Source of the DNA: Streptomyces sp. NA04227
GTDB lineage: Bacteria > Actinomycetota > Actinomycetes > Streptomycetales > Streptomycetaceae
Direction: 5' to 3'
Length of the DNA stretch: 64,000 bases
NCBI RefSeq assembly: GCF_013364195.1
Contig: NZ_CP054918.1
Span: 310,001-374,000, forward strand
Shown here piece by piece: positions 6,509 through 26,407 of the stretch. Made by a program: the position numbers and the translations under genes. Each line of letters starts with the position of its first letter. The stretch's first letter is position 1. Below the pieces are notes generated by a model. That model searched no databases, was not told the origin of the DNA, and saw only the letters and a list, made by a program, of their open reading frames with translations.

Positions 6509-9500
6509 ATGAGCGATCTGCAGCGTCCTGTGCACCCCGTCCGCCTGGTCACCGCCTCGGCCCTGTTCGACGGACACGACGCGTCGATCAACATCATGCG
6601 GCGGATCTTCCAGTCGCAGGGCGCCGAGGTGATCCACCTCGGCCACAACCGCTCCGTCCAGGAGGTCGTGGACGCGGCGCTGGAGGAGGACGTGCACGGC
6701 GTCGCCGTCTCGTCCTACCAGGGCGGCCACGTCGAGTACTTCGAGTACCTGGTCCAGTCGCTGCGCGAGCGCGGCGCGGACCACATCCGCGTGGTGGGCG
6801 GCGGGGGCGGCGTGATCGTGCCCGAGGAGATCACCCGGCTCCGCAACAGCGGGGTGACCATCTTCTCCCCCGAGGACGGCCAGCGGCTGGGCCTGGCCGG
6901 GATGATCAACTCGGTGGTGCGGGACTGCGACTTCGACCTCTGGGACGGCAAGCCCGCCGACGCCGAGGGCGTCCTCGCGGGCGACCGGTTCGCCATCGCC
7001 CGCGCCATCACCGGCGCCGAACTCGGCAAGCTGCCCCCGGCGTTCATGGAGCGGCTGCGTACGGCCGCGGCCTCGCGTGTCACGCCGGTGCTCGGCATCA
7101 CCGGTACCGGCGGCTCCGGCAAGTCGTCGCTCACCGACGAACTCGTCCGCCGGATCCGCGTCGACCAGCAGGACAAGCTGCGTATCGCGGTGATCGCGGT
7201 CGACCCGACCCGCCGCCGCGGCGGCGGTGCGCTGCTCGGCGACCGGATCCGGATGAACTCCCTGGACGGCAACCGCATCTTCTTCCGCAGCCTGGCGACC
7301 CGTGGCAGCCACGAACTGCCCGAGCACCTCACCGAGGTGATCGACGTGGTCAAGGCCGCCGGGTTCGACCTGGTGATCGTGGAGACCCCGGGCATCGGCC
7401 AGGGCGACGCGGCGATCGTGCCGTTCGTCGACACCTCCCTGTACGTGATGACGCCGGAGTTCGGTGCGGCCTCGCAGCTCGAGAAGATCGACATGCTCGA
7501 CTTCGCCGACGTCGTGACGATCAACAAGTTCGAGCGGCGCGGCGCCAAGGACGCGCAGCGCGACGTGAGCCGCCAGCTCGTCCGCAACCGCGAGGCCTTC
7601 GACAAGCGGCCCGAGGACATGCCGGTGTACGGCACCTCCGCGGCCACGTTCAACGACGACGGCGTCACCGCGCTCTACCAGCACCTGAAGACCTCCCTGG
7701 CCGACAAGGGGCTGGAGCTCACCGAGGGCACGCTGGCGCCGGTCGACGTGCGCCACTCCTCCGGAATCCGGCAGGTCGTGCCCACCGACCGGGTCCGCTA
7801 CCTCGCCGAGATCAGCGAGACGGTGCGTACCTACCACTCCCGGACCGAGCAGCTCGCCGAGGCCGCCCGCCGGGTGCAGCGCCTGGACACGGTCAAGGGC
7901 GAACTGGTCGAGGCCGGTTCGGACGCCGCCAACGTGGAGTCGCTGCTCACCGACGCCCGCAGGAGCCTCCCGCACGAGGTCGCGGACCAGATCGAGAACT
8001 GGCCCGCCGTCGTCGCGTCCTACTCCGGCGACGAGCAGGTCGTGAAGATCCGGGACAAGGAGATCCGCACCAAGCTGACCCGCGAGTCCCTCTCCGGCAA
8101 CAAGATCCCCCGTGTCTCGCTGCCGAGGTTCACCGACCACGGCGAGCTGGTGCGGTTCTGGCGCCGCGAGAACCTGCCCGGCCATTTCCCCTTCACCGCC
8201 GGGGTGTTCCCGTTCAAGCGGGACGGCGAGGACCCGGCGCGGATGTTCGCCGGTGAGGGCGACCCGTTCCGTACCAACCGGCGCTTCAAGCTGCTCTCCG
8301 AGGGCCAGCCCGCCACCCGGCTCTCCACCGCCTTCGACTCGGTCACCCTCTACGGCCGCGACCCGGGCGAGCGCCCCGACATCTACGGCAAGGTCGGCAC
8401 CTCCGGTGTCTCGGTGGCGACGCTGGAGGACATGAAGGAGCTGTACGACGGCTTCGACCTGATCGCCCCGACCACCTCGGTGTCGATGACGATCAACGGC
8501 CCGGCCCCGACCGTGCTCGCGTTCTTCCTCAATACCGCCGTCGACCAGCAGCTCGAACGGTTCCGCGCCACCGAGGGCCGCGAGCCCACCGCCGAGGAGG
8601 CGGCCGGGCTGCGCGCGCACGCGCTCGCGACCGTACGCGGCACCGTGCAGGCCGACATCCTCAAGGAGGACCAGGGCCAGAACACCTGCCTGTTCTCCAC
8701 CGAGTTCTCGCTGCGGATGATGGCCGACATCCAGGAATGGTTCATCGCCAACAAGGTCCGCAACTTCTACTCGGTCTCCATCTCCGGCTACCACATCGCC
8801 GAAGCCGGGGCGAACCCGATCAGTCAGCTCGCCTTCACGCTCGCCAACGGCTTCACCTACGTCGAGACCTACCTGGCGCGCGGCATGGACGTCGACGACT
8901 TCGCGCCGAACCTGTCGTTCTTCTTCTCCAACGGCATGGACCCCGAGTACTCGGTGCTCGGCCGCGTCGCCCGTCGCGTCTGGGCCGTCGCGATGAAGGA
9001 GAAGTACGGCGCCAACGAGCGCTCCCAGAAGCTGAAGTACCACGTCCAGACCTCGGGCCGCTCCCTGCACGCCCAGGAGATGGACTTCAACGACATCCGC
9101 ACCACGCTGCAGGCGCTCATCGCCATCTACGACAACTGCAACAGCCTGCACACCAACGCCTACGACGAGGCCGTCACCACCCCCACCGAGGAGTCCGTAC
9201 GCCGGGCCCTGGCCATCCAGCTCATCATCAACCGGGAGTGGGGCCTGGCGATGAACGAGAACCCCCTCCAGGGGTCGTTCATCATCGACGAGCTCACCGA
9301 CCTGGTCGAAGAAGCGGTCCTCCAGGAGTTCGAGCGGATCAGCGAGCGCGGCGGCGTGCTCGGCGCCATGGAGACCGGCTACCAGCGCGGCCGTATCCAG
9401 GACGAGTCCATGCTCTACGAGCAGCGCAAGCACGAGGGTTCGCTGCCCATCATCGGCGTCAATACCTTCCGCAACCCGCACGCCGACACCGCCGAACCCG

Positions 9501-14905: not shown

Positions 14906-15841
14906 ATGAAATCCACTTCTGGCCGAGGCAGAGTCCGGACGGCCCTGTTCGCGACACTGGCCGCCGTGGCACTCGTGTGCGGTGCGACGGCCGCTGCCCC
15001 GGCGGCCGTCCCCACACCGGCCCCCGAGGCGGCGCACGCCAAGGCGGGACCGACCTCGGTGGCCTATGTCGAGGTGAACAACAACAGCATGCTCAACGTC
15101 GGCAAGTACACGCTGGCCGAAGGCGGTGACAACGTTTTCGACATCGCTGTCATCTTCGCCGCCAACATCAACTACGACACCACCACCAAGTCGGCGTACC
15201 TGTCCTTCAACGAGAACGTGCAGCGCGTCCTGGACAACGCGGAGACGGAGATCAAGCCCTTGCAGGACAAGGGCATCAAGGTCGTACTGTCCGTGCTGGG
15301 CAACCACCAGGGCGCCGGCTTCGCCAACTTCCCCTCCCAGACGGCCGCTTCGGCCTTCGCCAAGGAGTTGTCCGACGCCGTCGGCAAGTACGGGCTCGAC
15401 GGTGTCGACTTCGACGACGAGTACGCCGAGTACGGGCAGAACGGCACGGGCCAGCCCAACGACAGCTCCTTCGTCCACCTGGTCACCGCCCTGCGCGACA
15501 ACATGCCCGACAAGCTCATCACCCTGTACGAGATCGGCCCGTCCGCGGACCGGTTGTCCTACGACGGCGTGGACATCACCTCGAAGTTCGACTACGCCTG
15601 GAACCCGTACTACGGATCATGGAGGGTTCCGCAGATCGCGCTGCCCAAGTCGCGGCTGTCGCCCGCGGCGGTCTCGATCGGCACCACGCCCACGGGCACC
15701 GCGGTCGACCTCGCCCGGCGGACCGTGGCCGAGGAGTACGGCGTGTTCCTGACCTACAACCTGGACGGTTCGGACCGGGAGGACTACCTCTCCAGCTTCA
15801 CCAGGGAGTTGTACGGCAGCGACGCCGTCTACACCCCGTAG
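14906..15841 (+). CDS. Secreted endo-beta-N-acetylglucosaminidase H-like enzyme (GH18)
   Basis: A 311-residue secreted glycosidase very similar throughout to Streptomyces plicatus Endo H. It cleaves the GlcNAc-GlcNAc core of high-mannose N-glycans. A signal peptide is clear: positively charged KSTSGRGRVRTA, a hydrophobic stretch to about residue 32, and an AP-rich spacer before TSVAYVEVNNNSMLNVGKY. The GH18 active-site motif DGVDFDDE lies at residues 165-172; D170 and E172 correspond to Endo H D130 and E132. NGHQ-like NHQGAGFANF and WNPYYG line the substrate groove. GGGAGAG precedes the ATG. It stands alone between convergent and upstream genes and probably serves scavenging of fungal or plant glycoprotein glycans. 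Confidence 0.96.
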   Translation: MKSTSGRGRVRTALFATLAAVALVCGATAAAPAAVPTPAPEAAHAKAGPTSVAYVEVNNNSMLNVGKYTLAEGGDNVFDIAVIFAANINYDTTTKSAYLSFNENVQRVLDNAETEIKPLQDKGIKVVLSVLGNHQGAGFANFPSQTAASAFAKELSDAVGKYGLDGVDFDDEYAEYGQNGTGQPNDSSFVHLVTALRDNMPDKLITLYEIGPSADRLSYDGVDITSKFDYAWNPYYGSWRVPQIALPKSRLSPAAVSIGTTPTGTAVDLARRTVAEEYGVFLTYNLDGSDREDYLSSFTRELYGSDAVYTP

Positions 15842-16061: not shown

Positions 16062-17360
16062 TCAGGTGGGGCTGAGCGGATGGGTGGCCGTGGCGGAGCG
16101 CGGCGGCCAGGCGCGGGGCGCGAGGATGCCGAGCACATAGGCGCGGGCGACCAGGGCGGGCCGGGTGGCCGCGCCGAGGAGTTCGCGCAGCCGACTGAGG
16201 TGGTAGTCGACCGTCTGCCGGGACAGCTTCAGCGAGGTGGCGATCTCCCCGTTGCTGCTGCCCTGGGCGAGCAGCGACAGGATGCGGATCTGCGCGGCGG
16301 TGAGCGGCGGATGGGCCTCGTGGGCGAGGCTCTGGTGGGTGACGACGGCCCAGACGTGCCGGGCACGGGCGGCACTGCGGCCGACCGTCGTGAGGTGGAG
16401 CTGGGCGCGGCGGTGCCGTCCCTCGGCGTCCACGAGCACGGCGGAGGTCTCCACCCGTCTGGTGCGGCGGGCTATCAGACCGTTCCATCCGCGGTGCAGC
16501 CGGCCGAGGTCCGGGGCCGAGGCCGGGGCGAGCAGGGTGTGCGCGCGGACACCGAGCAGGTCGGACAGCGGCAGCCGGAACAGTTCGGCCGCGGCCGTAC
16601 TCGCCTGCTCGATACGGCCGTTGGCCGAGAGCAGCGCGCAGGGCAGGCCGCTGTGGTCGCGCAGCGCGTGCAGGTTCTCCTCGGCCTCCCGGCGCTGGTT
16701 CATGGCCCGGATGTGCTCGGTGATGTCCACATAGATCCCGGCCACGCAGGTCTCGCCGTTCTCCTCGACCGGGAAGCGGTGGCCCGCCGCCTGCCCGGTG
16801 CCGCCGTCCGGGCGGTGGTAGCTCAGGGTGTGCCGCACCGGCTTGCCGCGGGTCAGGATCTCCTGGTCGAGCACCCGGAACCGCTGCGCGTCGGCGGGCG
16901 GGTCGAAGTCCTCGATGCGGGTGCCGACGACCTGTTCGGGGGTGGTGCCGTAGAGGTGCGCGTAGGCGTGATTGGCCCACAGATAGCGGCCGTTGCCGTC
17001 GCGGATGAAGGCGGCCGCGGGAGCGAAGTCGGCGAAGTCCGCGAAGGCGGCATAGCGTCGCGGGCCCGAGGCGCCGCCCGCGACCTCCACCGCGAGTCCG
17101 CGGGTGCGGCCCTTGGCGCGGCTCTCGTCGAGCGGGCAGCTCACGTCGAAGACCCGGCCGTCGAACCGGGCCTGCCAGCGGCCGTCGGCGGAGTGCCCCG
17201 GCGCCGAGAGCTCCTGGCGCATGCGGTCCAGGAAGCGCTGCGCCGTGCCCAGGTCGGCGAAGGCGCCGCCGCCCCGTTCCAGTACCCGCCACTCCTCGTC
17301 GACCTCCCACCAGGAGACGGGCACGCGCTCCAGGAGTGCTTTGAGGCTGGAATAGTCCAC
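16062..17360 (-). CDS. PAS-domain LuxR-family regulator
   Basis: A 432-residue one-component regulator without a receiver domain. A variable N-terminal region (1-110) precedes a PAS domain at about 118-225 (AAFIRDGNGRYLWANHAYAHLYGTTPEQVVG), a second PAS-like segment at about 235-350, and a C-terminal LuxR/GerE HTH at about 355-415 (LTAAQIRILSLLAQGSSNGEIATSLKLSRQTVDYHLSRLRELLG). The start is the GTG at 17360 after AAAGG. It is divergent from the ATP-grasp/dikinase/MFS cassette across 572 bases, so it is the obvious candidate regulator of that cassette. The ligand of the PAS domains is unknown. Confidence 0.92.
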   Translation of the reverse strand: MDYSSLKALLERVPVSWWEVDEEWRVLERGGGAFADLGTAQRFLDRMRQELSAPGHSADGRWQARFDGRVFDVSCPLDESRAKGRTRGLAVEVAGGASGPRRYAAFADFADFAPAAAFIRDGNGRYLWANHAYAHLYGTTPEQVVGTRIEDFDPPADAQRFRVLDQEILTRGKPVRHTLSYHRPDGGTGQAAGHRFPVEENGETCVAGIYVDITEHIRAMNQRREAEENLHALRDHSGLPCALLSANGRIEQASTAAAELFRLPLSDLLGVRAHTLLAPASAPDLGRLHRGWNGLIARRTRRVETSAVLVDAEGRHRRAQLHLTTVGRSAARARHVWAVVTHQSLAHEAHPPLTAAQIRILSLLAQGSSNGEIATSLKLSRQTVDYHLSRLRELLGAATRPALVARAYVLGILAPRAWPPRSATATHPLSPT

Positions 17361-17932
17361 AGGCGGCCTTTCCGTCCGTATTCAACCGACTGACGCGGTG
17401 TGACATCGCGATGCGTATCCCGTCCGCATCCCACGCATGCCCGGTTCTCGGCCGATCTGGCACCTCCGCCTCCCCAGGAAGACGTCCGGCAGGGCGCACC
17501 CCTACGCACTCACAGAACTTTCACGATGGCTCGACGCGACCCTCAACTCTGGCATTTGCCTGAGCGGTAGGGGCCCTCGGTGGCGTTCGGAGACCCCCAC
17601 CGCCTGGTTCCCTTGTGTGTACGGGCGAACACACCATGTCACGGGGCGAAGAGCCGCACTCCACCGCCTTCGGACACCAACTGCCGGGCCACGCCCCGCA
17701 GTCGGGCGCACCGTCCGGCGCCGCGCCGGGCACGTGAACCACGCGCACGACCCGTACGGCCCCCGTACCACCCGCAGGACCGCACCACCCGGACGAGCCG
17801 GAGGAACCGGCGGCCGGGACACCGCAATGCCCGGATTCCGTACGCAGGACCACCGCGCGGGCCAGGGACACCCCCGGGCGCGACGGCGATCACGGCCGTC
17901 GGGCCACGACAACCGAATGGAGACGAACTTCA
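17361..17932. other. Intergenic region between PAS-LuxR and ATP-grasp genes
   Basis: A 572-base divergent promoter region. Short open frames here are Arg/Pro-rich and lack ribosome sites. One rightward frame ends by overlapping the ATP-grasp start, but its composition is that of a chance frame. I see no strong operator. Confidence 0.5.
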
Positions 17933-19405
17933 GTGAGCAAGGTGCTGTTGGTGCACGCCAAGGGTGGACCGCCGCTCGGCCACGTCCTGTCCCGGACGGC
18001 CGCGAAGGCGGAGTTGCACCTCCTTGCGCTCAGCGCTCTGCCCCCGGCCGTCGCCACCGACGCCGGGAACCTGTGCGCCTCGGTGGTGACCCCGGCCGCG
18101 GCGCAGCGCTCCGACCTGGTCGCGTTGATCGTCACCCGGGCGCGGGAGGTGGGGGCGGACGCGGTGCTCACCTTCTCCGAGTACGCGGTGGTGGCCGTCG
18201 CGGAGGCCTGCGAGGCACTCGGGCTCCCTGGAGCGGGCAGCACCTGCGAACTCGCCCGCGACAAGCGGATGATGCGCCGCACCTGGCAGCAACACGGCCT
18301 GCCGCAGCCCGAGTTCCGTCCGGTAGCCACCGAGGCCGACCTGCACGACGCGGCCGCCGCGCTGCCCTTCCCGATGCTCCTCAAAGCGGCCTGGAGCGCG
18401 GGATCCACCGCCCACCAGATCATCCGCGCCCCGCACGAGGCGACCGAGGCCTGGCAGCACTCGCGCCAAGTAATGGCCGAATCGGCCCAGTTGGGCTACG
18501 CCGAGCTCCATGTGGCCGAGGCCGACGCGGACTTCGTCGTCGAGCAGATCGTGACCGGCACCGCGGGCGAGTGGTTCGACGAGCCCGGCTGGGGCGACTA
18601 CGTCAGCGTCGAGGGCGTGGTGGCCGACGGCACCTTCCACCCGGTCTGCCTCAGCGGCCGGATGCCCACCGTCGAACCCTTCACCGAGCGCGCGGGCATC
18701 ACCCCCGCCCTGCTCCCCGAGGACGCCCAGAACCGCATCGTGGACCTCGCGCGCCGGGCCGTGGACGCCCTCGGGCTCGGCACCTGCGGTACGCACACCG
18801 AGATCAAGCTCGGCGCCGACGGCCGCATGTGGCTGATCGAGACCGCGGCCCGGTTCGGCGGCGCGATGACCGTCCCGCAGATCGAGGAGGTCTTCGGTCT
18901 GGACCTGATCGGCATGCTCGTCGACCAGCTCCTCGGCCGCCCGGTCGCCTGGCCCGGGCAGGCTCTCACCTGCGAGCAGGCTCGCGGCGCCGCGGGTTCG
19001 CTGGTGGTCCTCGCGGTGGACGGCAACGGTGAGGCCTGGCCGGACCGCCGGGTCTGGGACTTCCCCACGGTGACCGGGGCGGTCCCGCTCAGCGAGGGCA
19101 GCACGCTGTCCGTGGTGCCGGAGAACTCGCTGCCCGACGGCAGCCCGGTACCGGTCTACGAGCCGGCCGGGGGCGCCAACACCATGGCCGCGCTCTGCCT
19201 GCTCTCGGCCAGGGACCCGCACACCGTACTGCGCGACTTCGAGACCCTTGTCGACGCCCTGCCGACCGCCCTGCCGCAGGCGCCCGCCGTCGCGAGGACA
19301 GCCCCCGCCACCGCCCCGCCGGCGGCGCCCACCGCTGCGCGGTCCGTATCCGCCGCCCGTACGCAGGTGCTGCCCACCGCGCTGCCCGAAGGGATCCCCG
19401 CATGA
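17933..19405 (+). CDS. ATP-grasp ligase, L-amino acid ligase (BacD)-like
   Basis: A 490-residue ATP-grasp enzyme. The family regions are LARDKRMMRRTWQQHGLPQPEF (about 103-125), the ATP-contacting PMLLKAAWSAGSTAHQI (about 147-163), FVVEQIVTGTAGEW, and HTEIKL at 288-293 with the following IETAARFGGAM, closely resembling HTEIKL...GLIESAARFAG of BacD, the L-alanine-anticapsin ligase of bacilysin. Such ligases join two carboxylate/amine substrates, typically amino acids, through an acyl-phosphate. The C-terminal about 60 residues are an Ala/Pro-rich tail. GGAGA lies 9 bases before the GTG. The stop overlaps the dikinase start as ATGA, so the first two cassette genes are translationally coupled. 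Substrates are unknown. Confidence 0.87.
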   Translation: MSKVLLVHAKGGPPLGHVLSRTAAKAELHLLALSALPPAVATDAGNLCASVVTPAAAQRSDLVALIVTRAREVGADAVLTFSEYAVVAVAEACEALGLPGAGSTCELARDKRMMRRTWQQHGLPQPEFRPVATEADLHDAAAALPFPMLLKAAWSAGSTAHQIIRAPHEATEAWQHSRQVMAESAQLGYAELHVAEADADFVVEQIVTGTAGEWFDEPGWGDYVSVEGVVADGTFHPVCLSGRMPTVEPFTERAGITPALLPEDAQNRIVDLARRAVDALGLGTCGTHTEIKLGADGRMWLIETAARFGGAMTVPQIEEVFGLDLIGMLVDQLLGRPVAWPGQALTCEQARGAAGSLVVLAVDGNGEAWPDRRVWDFPTVTGAVPLSEGSTLSVVPENSLPDGSPVPVYEPAGGANTMAALCLLSARDPHTVLRDFETLVDALPTALPQAPAVARTAPATAPPAAPTAARSVSAARTQVLPTALPEGIPA

Positions 19406-21414
19406 GCGCCGTTCTGCTCCCCGCCCCGGCCCCGGAGCCCGGCACGGACCGCACCGTGGTCGGCGGCAACCTCTCGCTGCCGCTGTTCCGCACCCTGTCC
19501 GGAGTCCTTGCCGGTCACCCGTACCTCAAGGTCGTCGTCGACCGCGCCGAGGACACCTGGCACCTGCTCGACACCGCCGCGCACCCCTTCCACGTCAACT
19601 ACATCGCCACCCGGGTGCTCGGCATGGACCTCGACCAACTCGACGCCGGTCTCGACGAGTTCAACGCCTCCGTCTACATGGACCCCGAGCGCCGCTTCCT
19701 GCTCGGTGTGCTGTCCCTGCACACCGACGAGGACACCGAGGGCCGCGAGCGCACCTTCCTGGTCCTGGAGACCACCGAGGCCGACACGATGCACGGCGCC
19801 CTCCTGGAGGCCTTCTACGAGTTCGTCCGGGTGCGCGTCGACGGACGGCTGCCGCTGCTGCTCAAGCCCGCCAACCACGGCCAGGAGGAGGAGCTGGCGG
19901 CGATCAGCGAACTGCGGGTGCCGCGCATCCTGGGCCACGAACTCTTCGGCACCAGGACCCGGACCCCGCTCAACACGGGCGAGGCCGTCGGACGGCTGCG
20001 CCGCTTCGCGGACCTCGAGGAGTACGAGGCCGCCGCGGCCGGACTCGGCTGGGCCGACATCGTCGCCATGCCCTGCCTGCCCGACGACGTGCCGCGGGTG
20101 GCCGGATTCGTGAACACCGCTCCCATCACCCCGCTCTCGCACACCAATGTCCTCGCCTCCGGCTGGGGCATCCCCAACGCGATCGTCCGCGACCTGGACC
20201 AACTCGCCGAGCAACACCGCCTGGACGGCGCCTGGATCCGCTACCGGGTGCGGGAGGACGAGATCAGCCTGGAGCGGCTGGCCCAGGAGCCCGCCCTGCA
20301 GCCCCCGGCCTGGCACCAGCAGCGGATACGCCTCGAACCGCCGCTGCTCGCCGACGCTCCGGTGCTCGCCCTGCACCGGCTGCGCAGCGCCGACCGCGAC
20401 CGGTACGGCACCAAGGCGGCCAACCTCGGCGAACTGCACCACGTCCTGGACAGCGGCACCGTCGACCTCACCGCCTTCCACGGGCGCCCCCGCCCGCCCC
20501 GCGAGAACCTCTACGGGCACCTGGCCGCACGGCTCGGCCTGCGCTCGCCCTCCGCCGCCGAACTCCGCTCCGCGGCGGCCGCCTTCGTCGCGGGCACCGT
20601 CGAGGCCCCCGACGGCGTCGCCCTTCCCTTCTCGCTCCAGCACCGCTTCCTCACCTCCTCGCCCGCGCTCCAACAGGGCATCGGAAAGCTGAAGATGGCG
20701 CTCGAACTCGACGCCTTCGAGGTACTGGACTCGCTCTGCCTGCAGCTCCAGCACCTGGTCCGGCACACTCCGATGCCCGGCTCGGTCATCCGCCTGATCG
20801 ACCAGGCCCTGCCCGCCCCGCTCGCCGGGGGCAGCCGTCTCGTGGTGCGCTCCTCCTCCAACGCCGAGGACCTGCCGGGCTTCTCTGCCGCGGGCGTCTA
20901 CGACTCGGTCACCACCGTCCGCGGCACCGGCGAACTCCTCGACGCGGTACGCCAGGTGTGGGCCTCGCTGCTCTCGCCACGCAGTGTGCGGCTGCGCCAC
21001 CAGGTCGGCATCTCCCTGGACGACACCTACATGGGCGTGATCATCCAGGAGTACGTCCCCGCCGAACTCGGCGGCGTCCTGGTGACCTGCAACCCGACCC
21101 GCCGCGAGGACTTCCGCAACGTCTACCTCAACTGCTCCCCCGGATCGCCGGAACAGGTCGTCGACGGCACCGTCCTGCCGCAGCAGTACCTGTACAACAC
21201 GGTCGAGGGCGGCGGCCGTACGGTGGCGCTCGGCTCCTGGGGCGAGGGCCTGTCCGCCGCCACCCGGTCCCGGCTCGCGGACCTGTCCCTGACCGGACGG
21301 CTGCTGCAGTCCCACTTCAGCGCGCCGGACGTGGACAAGCCGCTGGACATCGAGTGGCTGCTGACCGACCGGGACGAGTTCCGCCTGGTCCAGCTCCGCC
21401 CCTACGCACTGTGA
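19402..21414 (+). CDS. PEP-synthase/dikinase-like protein with reordered domains
   Basis: A 670-residue protein. The first 200 or so residues are unfamiliar. Then comes a segment like the swivelling phosphohistidine domain of PEP-utilising enzymes, APITPLSHTNVLASGWGIPNAIV with H247 as the possible phosphoryl carrier. The C-terminal half is the nucleotide-binding domain of PEP synthase: YGTKAANLGELHHVL, RSSSNAEDLPGFSAAG beginning at 483, IIQEYVPAELGGVLVTCNP, DIEW at 649 and the terminal FRLVQLRPYAL. Classical PEP synthase has the order nucleotide-binding, His, PEP barrel; here the His domain comes first and no PEP barrel follows. The closest familiar order is that of glucan-water dikinases. 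It may phosphorylate a small molecule. It overlaps both neighbours by stop/start codons. Confidence 0.82.
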   Translation: MSAVLLPAPAPEPGTDRTVVGGNLSLPLFRTLSGVLAGHPYLKVVVDRAEDTWHLLDTAAHPFHVNYIATRVLGMDLDQLDAGLDEFNASVYMDPERRFLLGVLSLHTDEDTEGRERTFLVLETTEADTMHGALLEAFYEFVRVRVDGRLPLLLKPANHGQEEELAAISELRVPRILGHELFGTRTRTPLNTGEAVGRLRRFADLEEYEAAAAGLGWADIVAMPCLPDDVPRVAGFVNTAPITPLSHTNVLASGWGIPNAIVRDLDQLAEQHRLDGAWIRYRVREDEISLERLAQEPALQPPAWHQQRIRLEPPLLADAPVLALHRLRSADRDRYGTKAANLGELHHVLDSGTVDLTAFHGRPRPPRENLYGHLAARLGLRSPSAAELRSAAAAFVAGTVEAPDGVALPFSLQHRFLTSSPALQQGIGKLKMALELDAFEVLDSLCLQLQHLVRHTPMPGSVIRLIDQALPAPLAGGSRLVVRSSSNAEDLPGFSAAGVYDSVTTVRGTGELLDAVRQVWASLLSPRSVRLRHQVGISLDDTYMGVIIQEYVPAELGGVLVTCNPTRREDFRNVYLNCSPGSPEQVVDGTVLPQQYLYNTVEGGGRTVALGSWGEGLSAATRSRLADLSLTGRLLQSHFSAPDVDKPLDIEWLLTDRDEFRLVQLRPYAL

Positions 21415-22955
21415 GCCCCCGCCTCCCGCGGTACGGCCTTCGGTGGCAGCGCCCCGCGGGGCGCTGCCTCGCGGCGGGCACCGCGCCGACCGACACCGCC
21501 CGCCGGATCATCCGCCTCAACTACGGCTTCCAGCTGCTGTTCAACCTGCTGTGGTGGATGCCGGTGTTCTACGCCTACCAGAAGGCGGCCGGACTCTCCG
21601 ACGGACAGATCTTCGGCATCCAGAGCATCTACTACGTGGCCTTCTGCCTGTTCGAGATCCCGACCGGCCTGATCGCCGACCGCATCGGCACTCGCAACTG
21701 CCTGCGGGCCGGTGCCGTCGTCATGACGGCGGCCAACCTGGCCCCGGTGCTCAGCCCCTCGTACACCGGCTTCCTGGTCCACTTCCTCGCCATCGCCGCG
21801 GGCCGCTCCCTCACCTCGGGCGCCGCGAGCGCCTATCTCTACGACGGGCTGCGGGCCGAGAAGTGCGACGAGCACTATCTGAAGGCCGAGGGCACGGCAC
21901 GCGCCCTCGGGCTCGCGGCCAAGGTGCTGTGCTGGCCGCTGGTGGGACCCCTGATGGCCCTGGCCCACACGGCCCCCTACGTCCTCAGCGCCGTGAGCGC
22001 GGCCGGTTCGCTGGCCTGCGCCGTCGCCCTGCCCCGGCTCGCGGCCCCTGCGGCGGGCGCCGGGAAGCGGAAGCACGGCAAGGACGGTGCGCGGGCAACG
22101 GCCGCCAGGGACAGCGGAAGCGGCGGGGGCGGCGCCTCGGGGGCGGACGGCGGCCGCCGGGGCGGGGCCTTCCTGCGCGACGCGGGTATCGCGCTGCGCT
22201 GTGTGGTCTCCTCGCCCTGGCTCGCCCTGGTGATGGTGCAGGGCGTGGCAGTGTTCACGCTCTCCCGGATCTGCCAGGTCAACCTCTTCCAGCCCATCCT
22301 GCTCGACCACGGCATCGGCGATTCCTCGCACGGCGGGGTGCTGGCCGCCATGACGGTGGCCGAGGCCGTGGCCTCCGCCCGCCCGCAGTGGCTGAGCCGT
22401 CGCCTGACCCCGGTGGCCTGGGTCTCGGTGCTGAGCCTCGCGCTCGCCGGCACCCTGGCGGGCATCGCCCTCGGCGGCCCCTGGACGGTCGTCACCCTGC
22501 TCTGCCTGTTCGCCGCCGCCACCGGTTTCGCGTACCCGGTGCAGCGCAAGCTGGTCAACGACGCGATACCCGCCCACGCGCCCCGGGCCACCCTGCTCTC
22601 CGTCGAGTCCATCGTGGACCGCGCGGTCTGCGCCCTGGCCGCCGTCGCCGCCGGCGCCTACCTCTCCGCCGGACGCCTGGACGCCCTGCTCTGGCACAGC
22701 GCCCTGGCCACCGCCGTCCTTCTCGGAGCCTTCCAACTGGCCCTGTGCAGCAGGGCGGTGAGGCGGCGGCTCGGCAGCATTACGGGAACGGAGTCGGATG
22801 CCGCTGCGAGTGCGGGCGCGGGGGCCGGTTCGGTGGCCGTGGAGCAGGGCGCGGGCCCGGGCTCGGTGACTGTGGAGCCGGGCTCGGGCTCAGCGGTTGC
22901 GGAGCCTGGTTCGGGCTCCTTGGTTGTGGCCGGGCACCCGAAGGCGGGCGTGTAG
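21411..22955 (+). CDS. MFS transporter (probable exporter)
   Basis: A 514-residue major facilitator protein with about 12 hydrophobic segments. It begins RRIIRLNYGFQLLFNLLWWMPVFYAYQKAAGLSDGQIFGIQSIYYVAFCLFEIPTGLIADRIGTRNCLRAG, where PTGLIADRIGTR is the MFS loop 2-3 motif. A Gly/Lys-rich central loop (about residues 215-255) divides the two halves. The C-terminal about 55 residues are a Gly/Ser/Glu-rich soluble tail with repeated EPGSGS-like units. The GTG at 21411 overlaps the dikinase TGA (GTGA); an internal RBS is poor, so coupling is likely. Coupling to a ligase and a kinase-like protein suggests it exports their product. Confidence 0.88.
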   Translation: MSPRLPRYGLRWQRPAGRCLAAGTAPTDTARRIIRLNYGFQLLFNLLWWMPVFYAYQKAAGLSDGQIFGIQSIYYVAFCLFEIPTGLIADRIGTRNCLRAGAVVMTAANLAPVLSPSYTGFLVHFLAIAAGRSLTSGAASAYLYDGLRAEKCDEHYLKAEGTARALGLAAKVLCWPLVGPLMALAHTAPYVLSAVSAAGSLACAVALPRLAAPAAGAGKRKHGKDGARATAARDSGSGGGGASGADGGRRGGAFLRDAGIALRCVVSSPWLALVMVQGVAVFTLSRICQVNLFQPILLDHGIGDSSHGGVLAAMTVAEAVASARPQWLSRRLTPVAWVSVLSLALAGTLAGIALGGPWTVVTLLCLFAAATGFAYPVQRKLVNDAIPAHAPRATLLSVESIVDRAVCALAAVAAGAYLSAGRLDALLWHSALATAVLLGAFQLALCSRAVRRRLGSITGTESDAAASAGAGAGSVAVEQGAGPGSVTVEPGSGSAVAEPGSGSLVVAGHPKAGV

Positions 22956-22971
22956 CCGCGAGGGACCCGGC

Positions 22972-23004
22972 GCCTGCCCGCCCACGGCACGGGGGCGGGC
23001 AGGC
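22972..23004. terminator. Terminator after the ATP-grasp/dikinase/MFS cassette
   Basis: GCCTGCCCGCCC (22972-22983) and GGGCGGGCAGGC (22993-23004) are perfect 12-base complements with a 9-base loop, between the convergent MFS and HAD genes. It closes the cassette 17 bases after the MFS stop. Confidence 0.85.
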
Positions 23005-23028
23005 GGCATGCGCTGCGGGCTCGTTGGA

Positions 23029-23664
23029 TCAGCGCGGCAGGTGGGCGAGGAGTTCGATCAGCCGGGCCGGGAGGTAGTCGGGGCGGGAGGGCTGCCCGAT
23101 CAGGTAGGCGACGTAGCCCAGCGAGGCGGCGACGTCCACCTCCTCGGCGGTCTCGGCCTGGTACACGAGGCGGCAGCCGCCCGCCCCGGCCTTGGCGCGC
23201 TCCCAGAGCACCGGCGCCGGCTTGCGCTCCTCCTCGGTGCGCGGGGTGAGGATCCGGTCCCCGAAGTCGCCCCAGGCGAAGGGCTCGGAGCCCGTCCAGG
23301 CGGAGTCGATCTCCTTCTTGAGCGCCGCCGCGCGCTCGGCGTCGGTCTCGCCCCAGGCGGACGGCACATTGGTGATCAGCCCCACCGGGATCCGGCGTTC
23401 GCGCAGTTCACGCAGGTAGGCGGCGGCGCCGGGGCGGTAGCCGATGCTCCCGTCCTCGGCCGAGTGCACCAGGGTCTCGCCGAGGTCGAAGTACACGACG
23501 GCGCAGCCCCGTTCGACGCCCTGCCGAGCGGCGGATGCCCGGCCCTGCCCGGCGTCGCCGCCCGGCACGGCCGCTGCTGCCGTCGTGGCCAGCGCGGTCG
23601 AGGCCAGCACGGCCCCGAGCGCGATACCGGCGCGGACGAAGCCACGGAAGTCAGATCTGTTCAC
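23029..23664 (-). CDS. Secreted HAD-superfamily hydrolase-like protein
   Basis: A 211-residue protein with a signal peptide (MNRSDFRGFVRAGIALGAVLASTALATTAAAA, likely cleaved near residue 33) followed by a HAD core. HAD motif I is YFDLGETLVHS with the nucleophile Asp at 60; it has Gly-Glu in place of the usual DxDxT second Asp. A Thr in GLITN fits motif II, Lys in EEERKPAP fits motif III, and a late QAETAEEVDVAASLGY fits motif IV. HAD enzymes are normally cytosolic, so export is unusual. The start is the GTG at 23664 with AGGAGAAGG upstream; longer frames lack the signal peptide at the N-terminus. Substrate unknown, likely a phosphoester outside the cell. Confidence 0.8.
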   Translation of the reverse strand: MNRSDFRGFVRAGIALGAVLASTALATTAAAAVPGGDAGQGRASAARQGVERGCAVVYFDLGETLVHSAEDGSIGYRPGAAAYLRELRERRIPVGLITNVPSAWGETDAERAAALKKEIDSAWTGSEPFAWGDFGDRILTPRTEEERKPAPVLWERAKAGAGGCRLVYQAETAEEVDVAASLGYVAYLIGQPSRPDYLPARLIELLAHLPR

Positions 23665-24177
23665 GGCGCGGCGCCCTTCTCCTTGACGCACCCCAGGGGC
23701 GTGCATCTGTCCAGTCCATGACACATATCGCGGCAGGAATTCCCCCGCCACCGGCAGGTGCCCGGAAGATCTCTCTTCGGTCAGTACTCCCTCCCGCTCT
23801 ACCCCGCGGCACCACGGACCAGTCCCGTACCACCGAACTCCCCCGCCACGAACGCCTCTTGAGGCCCGGGAAACCGTCGTCGCTCACCGACAGTGAGAGA
23901 GGTGGTGTGCTTCGGGACGGAGACGCGCCTGCCGTTCGCGCACGTGATATTCGCTGCCGCAAGTCCGATACTGCCAACAGCAACACCTCGGCCGAGGCAA
24001 CCCAACCTGACGACCCGTCACCGAAGTCAGCACCCAGTCGGCATCAACACCGCCAGAACCTCCTTCGAGCCGCCACGGACCGCCGCGAACCGCCGAGATC
24101 ACCAACCGCCCACACCCCCTCCGACCAGCAAAGACACAGATCTGCGACTGGCCTGCTACGCCCCCCAGGAGGTACCC
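23665..24177. other. Divergent intergenic region before dhaK
   Basis: A 513-base gap between the HAD gene and dhaK. It is less GC-rich than the genes. I see no convincing operator, hairpin or reading frame; promoters for both genes presumably lie here. Confidence 0.5.
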
Positions 24178-25170
24178 ATGAAGATGCTCATCAACGTCCC
24201 CGAGACCGTCGTCCCGGACGCCCTGCGCGGTCTGGCCGCGGCCCACCCCGAGCTGACCGTCGACGTCGAGAACCGCGTGGTCGTCAGGCGTGACGCCCCG
24301 GTGGAGGGCAAGGTGGCCCTGGTCTCCGGCGGCGGCTCGGGGCACGAGCCGCTGCACGGCGGGTTCGTCGGGCCCGGCATGCTCTCGGCGGCCTGTCCGG
24401 GTGAGGTGTTCACCTCGCCGGTGCCCGACCAGATGGTGCGTGCCGCGGCGGCCGTGGACAGTGGCGCGGGCGTCCTCTTCGTGGTGAAGAACTACACGGG
24501 CGACGTCCTGAACTTCGACATGGCCGCCGAACTCGCCGAGGACGAGGGCGTGCAGATCGCCAAGGTGCTCGTCAACGACGACGTGGCGGTGCAGGACAGT
24601 ACGTACACGGCGGGGCGGCGCGGAACCGGGGCCACCCTGTTCGTGCACAAGATCGCGGGGGCGGCGGCGGACGAGGGCATGCCGCTCGACCAGGTCGCGG
24701 CGATCGGGCACCGGGTCAACGAACGTGCGCGGACCTTCGGTGTCGCGCTCAGCGCGTGCAGCACCCCGGCCAAGGGCAGCCCCACCTTCGACCTGCCCGC
24801 GGGCGAACTGGAACTCGGCATCGGCATCCACGGCGAGCCCGGCCGGGAGCGGCGCCCCATGATGACCTCCCGCGAGATCGCCGACTACGTACTGGACAGC
24901 GTCCTGACCGACCTTCAGCCCCGTAATCCGGTCTTGGTGCTCGTCAACGGCATGGGCGCCACCCCGCTGATCGAGTTGTACGGATTCCACGCCGAGGTCG
25001 CCCGGGTCCTCGGCGAGCGCAAGGTCACGGTGGCCCGGACCCTGGTCGGCAACTACGTGACCTCGCTCGACATGGCCGGGGTCTCGGTCACCCTGTGCGA
25101 GATCGACGAGGAGCTGCTGCGGCTGTGGGACGCGCCGGTGCGTACTCCGGCGCTGCGCTGGGGAGTCTGA
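24178..25170 (+). CDS. dhaK: Dihydroxyacetone kinase subunit DhaK
   Basis: A 330-residue DhaK subunit that binds dihydroxyacetone covalently as a hemiaminal through His. The key region is GIGIHGEPGRERRPM, with His at 218. SGGGSGHEPLHGGFVG and VVKNYTGDVLNFDMA are further DhaK signatures. With DhaL and DhaM it forms the PTS-dependent kinase that makes dihydroxyacetone phosphate in the cytosol using PEP. AGGAGG at 24167-24172 precedes the ATG. It is followed 177 bases later by dhaL, then dhaM overlapping dhaL, the standard order. Confidence 0.96.
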   Translation: MKMLINVPETVVPDALRGLAAAHPELTVDVENRVVVRRDAPVEGKVALVSGGGSGHEPLHGGFVGPGMLSAACPGEVFTSPVPDQMVRAAAAVDSGAGVLFVVKNYTGDVLNFDMAAELAEDEGVQIAKVLVNDDVAVQDSTYTAGRRGTGATLFVHKIAGAAADEGMPLDQVAAIGHRVNERARTFGVALSACSTPAKGSPTFDLPAGELELGIGIHGEPGRERRPMMTSREIADYVLDSVLTDLQPRNPVLVLVNGMGATPLIELYGFHAEVARVLGERKVTVARTLVGNYVTSLDMAGVSVTLCEIDEELLRLWDAPVRTPALRWGV

Positions 25171-25347
25171 GCCGGGGCCGGGCCCACCGCGGCCCTGTGG
25201 CCCGAGTGCCCGGCCGCCCGCCGCGTCTGGGGGGGACCCGCCCGGAACGGCCGAACCGCGGGACGTGCGCTGTCCCCGGCGACAGACTGGGAAACGCACC
25301 TCAGCCATCACCGGCCCCCGGGGGCCGCAGGACACTACGGAGAGCCC

Positions 25348-25989
25348 GTGCTCGATGCCGCATTCTTCCGGCGCTGGATGGCCGAAGCCGCCGCCGTGGT
25401 CACCCGCGAGGCGGACCGGCTGACCGAACTCGACTCGCCGATCGGCGACGCCGACCACGGCAACAATCTGCAACGCGGCTTCGCGGCCGTCGTCACGGCC
25501 CTCGACGCGCAGGACCCGAAGACCCCGGGCGCGGTGCTGGTCCTGTGCGGCGGCAAGCTCATCTCCACCGTCGGCGGGGCCTCGGGCCCGCTGTACGGGA
25601 CCTTGCTGCGGCGTACGGGCAAGGCGCTCGGCGACGCCCCGGAGGTGTCGCGCGAGGACCTGGCCGGGGCGCTGGGCACGGGGGTTCAGGCCGTGAGCAC
25701 CCTGGGCGGCGCGGCGGCCGGGGACAAGACCATGCTGGACGCCCTGCTCCCGGCCGTCGAGGCACTGGCCGTCTCCTTCGAGGCGGCGCGCGCGGCGGCC
25801 GAGCAGGGCTCCCGCGACACCATCCCGCTGCGGGCCCGCAAGGGCAGGGCGAGTTACCTCGGTGAGCGCAGCGTCGGTCACGAGGATCCGGGCGCCGCCT
25901 CCTCGGCGCTGCTGATCGCCGCTCTCGCGGACACGGCGGACACCGCGACGGACACGACCGCCCCGGCAAAGGACGGCAGCGATGTCTGA
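25348..25989 (+). CDS. dhaL: Dihydroxyacetone kinase subunit DhaL
   Basis: A 213-residue ADP-binding subunit. The helical barrel motifs are LTELDSPIGDADHGNNLQRGF near residues 26-46, whose Asp residues chelate Mg-ADP, and later GDKTMLDALLPAVEAL and the C-terminal YLGERSVGHEDPGAAS. ADP bound here is a cofactor that is re-phosphorylated by DhaM and passes phosphate to dihydroxyacetone held on DhaK. The GTG at 25348 has CGGAGAG upstream. The last codons overlap dhaM by 8 bases. Confidence 0.95.
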   Translation: MLDAAFFRRWMAEAAAVVTREADRLTELDSPIGDADHGNNLQRGFAAVVTALDAQDPKTPGAVLVLCGGKLISTVGGASGPLYGTLLRRTGKALGDAPEVSREDLAGALGTGVQAVSTLGGAAAGDKTMLDALLPAVEALAVSFEAARAAAEQGSRDTIPLRARKGRASYLGERSVGHEDPGAASSALLIAALADTADTATDTTAPAKDGSDV

Positions 25990-26407
25990 ACCGACCGGGA
26001 AGCCCGCCGACGGACCGGTCGGCCTCGTTCTCGTCTCGCACAGTGCCGCTCTCGCCGAGGCGGTCGCCGAGCTGGCCCGGGGCCTCTCGCCGGGCTCCGA
26101 GGTCCCGCTCGCCGCGGCGGGTGGCGGACCGGACGGCTCCCTGGGTACGAGCGCGGAGCGCATCACGGCCGCGGCGGCCGCGGCGGACCGCGGCGCGGGC
26201 GTCGCGGTGCTGGCCGATCTCGGCAGCGCCGTCCTCACCGTGAAGGCCCTGCTCGCCGAGGGGGACGAACTCCCGGACGGGACACGACTGGTGGACGCCC
26301 CCTTCGTCGAGGGCGCGGTGGCGGCACTGGCGACCGCGGCCACCGGGGCGGGAATGGACGAGGTGCTCGCGGCCGCCGCCGACGCGTACGCCTACCGCAA
26401 GGTCTGA
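25982..26407 (+). CDS. dhaM: PTS-type phosphotransfer subunit DhaM (EIIA domain only)
   Basis: A 141-residue mannose-EIIA-like domain with the phospho-acceptor in LVLVSHSAALAEAV (H20). GVAVLADLGSAVLTVKALL is the second family motif. It receives phosphate from PTS HPr and recharges DhaL-ADP. Unlike E. coli DhaM, it has no fused HPr or EI domain, so it must use the general HPr/EI of the cell. The start lies inside the end of dhaL, indicating coupling. Confidence 0.93.
   Translation: MSEPTGKPADGPVGLVLVSHSAALAEAVAELARGLSPGSEVPLAAAGGGPDGSLGTSAERITAAAAAADRGAGVAVLADLGSAVLTVKALLAEGDELPDGTRLVDAPFVEGAVAALATAATGAGMDEVLAAAADAYAYRKV

Follow-up and report, generated by a model that had tools for sequence, protein, structure and literature searches.

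A ligase-kinase-transporter cassette of Streptomyces that may make and export a phosphorylated dipeptide

What might a bacterium make with an amino-acid ligase, a dikinase-like enzyme and a transporter encoded one after the other? This question is raised by a 64,000-nucleotide stretch of DNA from Streptomyces sp. NA04227 (contig NZ_CP054918.1, positions 310,001 to 374,000; hereafter the window, whose own coordinates are used below), in which three genes, termed here LIG (17933-19405, 490 aa, GTG start), DIK (19402-21414, 670 aa) and MFS (21411-22955, 514 aa from the GTG at 21411), follow one another in the same direction on the + strand. On balance we favour the reading that the product of this cassette, made and then exported, is an N-phosphorylated dipeptide (a phosphoramidate), amounting to phosphoramidon that lacks the deoxysugar. 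A phosphorylated-dipeptide product is supported by the co-inheritance of ligase and kinase, the glycosyltransferases of cassette relatives, invariant swivel-histidine and ATP-site residues in the kinase, recurrent phosphatases and M4 peptidase neighbours.

The ligase-kinase-transporter block

Consecutive genes share stop and start codons (ATGA at 19402-19405 for LIG/DIK, GTGA at 21411-21414 for DIK/MFS), exactly as a preliminary description of this DNA had read them. Pfam and NCBIfam assign the products as an ATP-grasp/BacD-like protein (LIG), a PPDK_N protein (DIK) and an MFS_1 transporter (Pfam, 3.1e-12), presumably an exporter. The extent first given to the block, 17933..22955, holds the cassette genes correctly but is one gene short, since a convergent HAD gene (open reading frame 23029-23751) is found with the cassette in many genomes.

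A kinase scan with one genome per species returned 103 relatives, of which the best 80 were used (69 Streptomyces, 1 Amycolatopsis and 10 other records). LIG, MFS and a divergent PAS-LuxR gene were all present in 69/69 Streptomyces loci, counting a C-terminal fragment of LIG at L057 and partial MFS matches at L045 and L057. In 79 of the 80 loci MFS followed DIK; the remaining one, L075, stops shortly past DIK. The ligase stop overlapped the projected kinase start in 59/69 Streptomyces loci, by exactly 4 nt in 47, and lay 2 or 5 nt from it in the remaining 10. Searching in reverse, with the ligase as query, turned up 22 places spread over 21 of the 150 Streptomyces genomes, and coordinate comparison put 19 of these beside the kinase; at G097 MFS sits between the two. 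With co-occurrence at 69/69 from the kinase and 19/22 from the ligase, we rejected chance neighbourhood, and the recurrence of the three genes in other genomes, on which the preliminary description had staked its proposal, was found.

The three ligase places away from a kinase hold paralogues, 45-47% identical, which on our inspection appear to sit in other specialised-looking cassettes: at L130 with a methyltransferase, an asparagine-synthase-like enzyme and an MFS gene (L131 is alike by similarity), and at L129 among pyridoxal-phosphate enzymes, a second amino-acid ligase and an MFS gene. At L057 (about 7015-7959) the C-terminal ligase remnant abuts the regulator match, an apparent deletion in one Streptomyces cassette.

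LIG lies nearest to BacD (NCBIfam 185.4 bits; PDB 3wo1, E 1.6e-50), which outranks primary-metabolism ligases among the matches listed, at a score below the BacD equivalog cut-off of 850 bits. Six residues aligned with BacD (E252, H288, E290, E303, R307 and G310) were identical in 73/73 distinct covering orthologues. Residues of this type serve the ATP/Mg and carboxylate site, and with all six conserved LIG is, as judged from sequence, a BacD-like L-amino-acid ligase of the ATP-grasp class, as first proposed. No firm grouping with primary metabolism appeared, and a primary-metabolism ligase was rejected, BacD standing ahead of such ligases among the matches listed.

The Trp332 of BacD restricts the N-terminal residue. 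Its position (BacD numbers being chain index minus two) holds Ala in 68/73 and Val in 5/73 LIG orthologues, and Val (12) or Leu (9) in 21 glycosyltransferase-type and other divergent copies. The His276 position holds Gly in 55, Ser in 15, Thr in 2 and Ala in 1 of the 73, and the PDB contains a BacD Trp-to-Ala variant (3wo1 vs 3wnz). Because the pocket is opened at the Trp332 position, LIG likely accepts an N-terminal residue larger than alanine.

DIK is composed of an N-terminal, candidate acceptor-binding domain (19444-19950, residues about 15-183), a phosphohistidine swivel domain (19951-20283, residues 184-294) with the candidate catalytic His247 in an SHTN motif (20140-20142), and an ATP-grasp domain (20404-21405, residues 335-668), all on the + strand. 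PPDK_N, its sole Pfam match, covers residues 399-600 of 670 (E 4.3e-37); no PEP (phosphoenolpyruvate)-utilising/pyruvate barrel was among the Pfam matches. A 12-row alignment, structural models and fold searches all place the swivel ahead of the ATP-grasp domain. The nearest solved structures are those of rifampin phosphotransferase (RPH), an antibiotic-inactivating kinase: the ATP-grasp domain matched the ATP domain alone of RPH-Lm (5hv6_A; Foldseek E 3.7e-15, TM 0.75 by target length), and R483, E651 and Q664 align with its Arg117, Glu297 and Gln309. The swivel histidine and ATP-site residues were invariant across the relatives aligned. Judged on these residues and models, DIK is assigned to the phosphohistidine-swivel kinase superfamily of PEP synthase (PEPS), pyruvate phosphate dikinase (PPDK) and RPH. 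A 302-residue N-terminal model had no Foldseek match at E <= 0.001, the VIA-align rows falling mainly on residues 183-300, so that residues 1-170 were barely covered.

The label PEP-synthase-like, under which the kinase was first described, holds for the PPDK_N and swivel domains but fails for the missing barrel and the swivel-first order; a plain PEP synthase (PpsA) was rejected on the same two grounds, the PEP/pyruvate barrel being C-terminal. Rifampin phosphotransferase itself was also discarded (104.1 bits vs a cut-off of 999, with the swivel at 184-294 ahead of the ATP domain).

Sugar transferases, phosphatases and peptidases near the kinase

A search with a divergent kinase as query gave matches in 41 of 249 Streptomycetaceae genomes, and 20 further loci were fetched (16 from Streptomycetaceae, 4 from the order of Amycolatopsis). 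In nine of the Streptomycetaceae loci (L134-L142) kinase and ligase are combined with an EryCIII-type deoxysugar glycosyltransferase, with no relative of the window MFS between or beside these genes, and the other seven (L143-L149) carry the ligase-kinase-MFS set of the window. All nine come from a single genus (g249), for which Kitasatospora supplies most of the nearest named proteins; since L143 and L146, also from g249, are MFS-type loci, the split follows the cassette and not the genus. The glycosyltransferase was EryCIII-like by Pfam in 3/3 tested and nearest to NCBIfam activator-dependent glycosyltransferases, below cut-off, in 2/2 tested. In Amycolatopsis (L070) all four genes, for transferase, kinase, MFS and ligase, occur together. 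Single glycosyltransferase-type cassettes also had a purple acid phosphatase (L134) or an M14 peptidase (L135) alongside, to which we attach no weight.

In the biosynthesis of phosphoramidon the kinase is TalE and the transferase TalC. The title of a 2019 study by Baulig implies a ligase, an N-P-bond-forming kinase and a deoxysugar transferase for this compound. With the L141 transferase, rather than the published one, as query, searches for an EryCIII-type glycosyltransferase gave no match at E <= 1e-6 in either the window (64 kb) or the set of 69 Streptomyces loci, and none at E <= 1e-20 in the 7.9-Mb genome that the window comes from. Moreover, among 19 kinase-bearing Streptomyces genomes searched, none had the transferase near the cassette and six, the window's own included, had none at E <= 1e-20. 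Set against the gene logic of phosphoramidon, this absence implies that the window's version should stop at the phosphoryl dipeptide. The pathway had been called undescribed, which is right only in part: its gene logic matches the known route to phosphoramidon with the sugar step left off. Titles and abstracts in the open-access literature searched held no description of this cassette, which is no proof of its absence from print.

The convergent gene downstream (23029-23664 on the - strand, probable GTG start at 23664) encodes a HAD-type phosphatase whose N-terminus after this GTG reads, by eye, as a Sec-type signal peptide. Its Pfam matches fall below curated cut-offs. The D89-x-G91-x-T93 motif and K177 were present in 39/39 distinct relatives and Thr127 in 36/39; having the nucleophile Asp, the motif II Thr/Ser and the motif III Lys, the protein is classed as a predicted HAD phosphatase. 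By tblastn the gene was found in 35/69 Streptomyces loci, in 34 just past MFS and convergent and in L027 5 kb away; the other 34 had no match, three of their contigs ending soon after MFS. Among 22 distinct non-actinobacterial loci extending past MFS, a HAD gene came next in eight (L071, L073, L079, L110, L111, L113, L123 and L124) and a PAP2 phosphatase, of a family unrelated to HAD, followed MFS in three (L080, L121, L122). The gene run at L113 is kinase, MFS, ATP-grasp, HAD. At L123 (5372-7135, - strand) MFS_1 (20-338) and HAD (about 408-565) share a single reading frame of 587 residues, and a hydrophobic stretch (389-409) separates the two domains in such a way that HAD could come to lie outside. 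This is one metagenomic or draft locus, where two genes may have been joined in frame. Signal-like N-termini were recognised by eye in seven non-actinobacterial HAD proteins and in the 14 displayed of 38 minus-strand matches, covering three phyla. No phosphatase was found in the third operon gene of L074 or the gene adjoining L072. As L112 duplicates L072, the HAD and residue figures are distinct-locus counts; the kinase tree has 101 rows, with 18 duplicate or short-flank loci omitted by hand and HAD labels lacking for L123 and L124.

A thermolysin-type M4 peptidase gene adjoins the cassette in 11/69 Streptomyces loci (tblastn), including a partial gene at a contig end (L047) and a match in two pieces (L054). 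About 0.42 such neighbours would be expected over all flanks at a density of 196 matches in 41 genomes, a density that comes from a Pfam count and thus from a different method. On the kinase tree the 11 loci fall in four clades and three arrangements (downstream on the same strand, downstream convergent, beyond the regulator), with seven changes as the fewest; counted as four events, they have a Poisson probability of about 9e-4 across the full set of loci. Thermolysin typifies family M4. It is inhibited by phosphoramidon and talopeptin (PMC6429109).

Full-length kinase relatives are carried by 32 of the 295 Streptomyces genomes sampled (the window's genome is one of the 32), beyond which G201 has one in two pieces, and also by other actinobacteria and by Bdellovibrionota and Elusimicrobiota samples. 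Outside Streptomyces the distribution is patchy: the kinase was seen in 22 of 191 genomes from the L071 phylum, in 2 of 149 from the L073 phylum and in 5 of 249 in the order of Amycolatopsis. A search of 396 Actinomycetota genomes gave three matches, all in the window's genus, with thin sampling, protein searches naming many other genera. This patchiness suggests spread by horizontal transfer. Since a relative of nearby ATP-grasp genes was found in only 3/25 non-actinobacterial loci (L073, L113, L124), the kinase-MFS pair may be the older core, and the acceptor outside actinobacteria may differ.

Aconitase-like and H+-pyrophosphatase-like genes flank this pair at L112 (=L072), L114, L115, L116 and L120, and one of the two does so at L077, L117 and L118 (Pfam on L112 only, the others by similarity); these neighbours could reflect either a link to pyrophosphate or plain synteny. 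Upstream of the pair at L151, L152 and L153 are dihydroxy-acid/6-phosphogluconate dehydratase and KDPG-aldolase-like genes (Pfam on L151 only, the other two by similarity).

What the cassette may make

Gene order, coupling, domains, conserved catalytic residues, co-occurrence, the transferase of the relatives and its absence here, signal-like N-termini and M4 neighbours in other clades were observed directly; the substrates, N- rather than O-phosphorylation, the direction of transport, the target, the role of the HAD protein and the regulation are inferred. LIG would join two amino acids using ATP, and DIK would move a phosphoryl group from ATP via the swivel His247 to the dipeptide, most likely to its free amino group. 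MFS would export the phosphorylated product, which outside the cell might act on M4 (thermolysin)-type zinc metallopeptidases that belong either to the producer or to a neighbour. Within the clade of the window the secreted HAD phosphatase could strip the phosphoryl group and so end the effect, and the PAS-LuxR protein would switch the operon. The exported dipeptide-like, possibly phosphorylated, product of the preliminary description gains from the glycosyltransferase relatives, the recurrent secreted phosphatase and the M4 neighbours, with its identity, phosphorylation site and export still matters of proposal.

Several points weigh against this proposal. Neither the window nor the other loci of its HAD-bearing clade yielded an M4 gene, so the target is unsupported for this genome, and the M4 genes elsewhere could be ancestral neighbours lost several times. 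A phosphatase beside a phosphoramidate inhibitor would destroy that inhibitor, and a scheme of activation fits more simply. The homology of DIK to the phosphoramidon kinase is argued from gene context, and export by MFS is presumed. Finally, 11 of the 22 testable non-actinobacterial loci had neither a HAD nor a PAP2 relative after MFS, which, together with the 3/25 loci with an ATP-grasp relative, means that the acceptor there may be no ligase product.

The strongest rival shares its first three steps with the favoured phosphoramidate and differs in purpose: DIK would silence a harmful ligase product, MFS would carry it out in masked form, and a secreted phosphatase, HAD or PAP2, would free the active compound outside. 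Kinase, MFS and extracytoplasmic phosphatase do recur without a nearby ligase (HAD in 8/22 and PAP2 in 3/22 non-actinobacterial loci), HAD proteins with signal-like N-termini span three phyla, the kinase structures nearest to DIK belong to an enzyme that inactivates an antibiotic, and the single MFS-HAD frame of L123, whose hydrophobic stretch could put HAD outside, raised our estimate slightly. We still hold this rival doubtful, as HAD was not found in 34/69 Streptomyces loci (allowing for the three contigs that end soon after MFS) and the M4 neighbours and glycosyltransferase relatives are left unexplained. A broader form of the same idea, a shade more tentative and also lifted a little by the L123 frame, is a cross-phylum phosphorylate-export-dephosphorylate module that might mask a peptide-like bioactive inside and unmask it outside. 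It would consist of a swivel-first kinase, an MFS and a HAD or PAP2 phosphatase, either secreted or fused to the MFS, and a ligase might or might not be part of it; sugar-capped phosphoramidon would be one specialised offshoot, and the Bdellovibrionota version would be a system that has so far escaped recognition.

Two further explanations seem improbable to us. DIK might be a second ligase or condensing enzyme like PigC or RedH, using transient phosphate activation towards a phosphorus-free product; its ATP domain does score weakly with both (61.8 and 64.3 bits), far under the curated cut-offs of 1300 and 1350, and the recurrent phosphatases and the glycosyltransferase would go unexplained. 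Equally hard to credit is uptake and salvage, in which the secreted phosphatase would free a nutrient, MFS import it, DIK trap it by phosphorylation and the ligase tag it. A secreted phosphatase suits scavenging, MFS direction is unreadable from sequence, and housekeeping genes (aconitase, H+-pyrophosphatase) adjoin several Bdellovibrionota loci; a BacD-like ligase with paralogues in other MFS-bearing cassettes and the kinase-ligase-glycosyltransferase relatives nevertheless suit biosynthesis better.

The favoured phosphoramidate dipeptide would matter because natural products with a P-N bond are few and phosphoramidon is a well-known metalloproteinase inhibitor. A version with as few as three genes lends itself to expression and assay, a swivel-first kinase beside a BacD-like ligase offers a clear handle for genome mining, and through the secreted phosphatase one can test directly what becomes of the phosphoryl group.

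Flanking features and known systems

The divergent PAS-LuxR regulator gene (16062-17360, - strand; PAS_4 and GerE by Pfam) was correctly recognised at the outset. Between it and LIG lies a 572-bp region (17361-17932) that presumably bears promoters, in which a promoter scan found no sigma-70 consensus site. A strong terminator had been proposed after MFS: a long G+C hairpin does exist between the convergent MFS and HAD genes (about 22971-23005, + strand), and the stretch bearing it (22956-23028) folds at -45.9 kcal/mol, but it has no T-run, and the terminator scan gave a total of two matches vs a shuffle mean of 1.4, not above shuffles, its sole + strand match being inside MFS (22901-22919). 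A terminator without T-run is thus possible but unproven. Further out, an Endo-beta-N-acetylglucosaminidase H gene (14906-15841, + strand; 482.6 bits vs an NCBIfam equivalog cut-off of 300) had no homologue among the 80 kinase loci and is therefore placed outside the cassette, and three reading frames at 23893-26407 (+ strand) we take, by eye, to resemble a dihydroxyacetone kinase DhaK-DhaL-DhaM set.

Among known systems, LIG finds its best match in the alanine-anticapsin ligase BacD (PDB 3wo1, 3wnz, 3vmm) and keeps the ATP/Mg/carboxylate residues, but differs in its replaced Trp332 and His276 and in its score (185 vs 850 bits). DIK shares the PPDK_N and swivel domains with PEP synthase and pyruvate phosphate dikinase, whereas their barrel is not among its Pfam matches and its domain order is reversed. 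A swivel-histidine domain before the ATP domain is presumably also the order in plant glucan water dikinase, an enzyme that acts on starch and carries carbohydrate-binding modules. RPH-Lm, which phosphorylates a small molecule via phosphohistidine (PDB 5fbt/5hv1; PMC4844700), has ATP-grasp and swivel-histidine domains with residues matched in DIK; in DIK the swivel precedes ATP-grasp, and no match to the rifampin-binding domain was seen. For phosphoramidon itself, a Rhodococcus cluster is reported to have 40% antiSMASH similarity (PMC11705897). The closest parallel is phosphoramidon/talopeptin biosynthesis, in that cassette relatives combine ligase, kinase and EryCIII-type glycosyltransferase and thermolysin-type peptidase genes flank some Streptomyces cassettes, whereas the window has MFS and a secreted HAD, with no EryCIII-type glycosyltransferase found.

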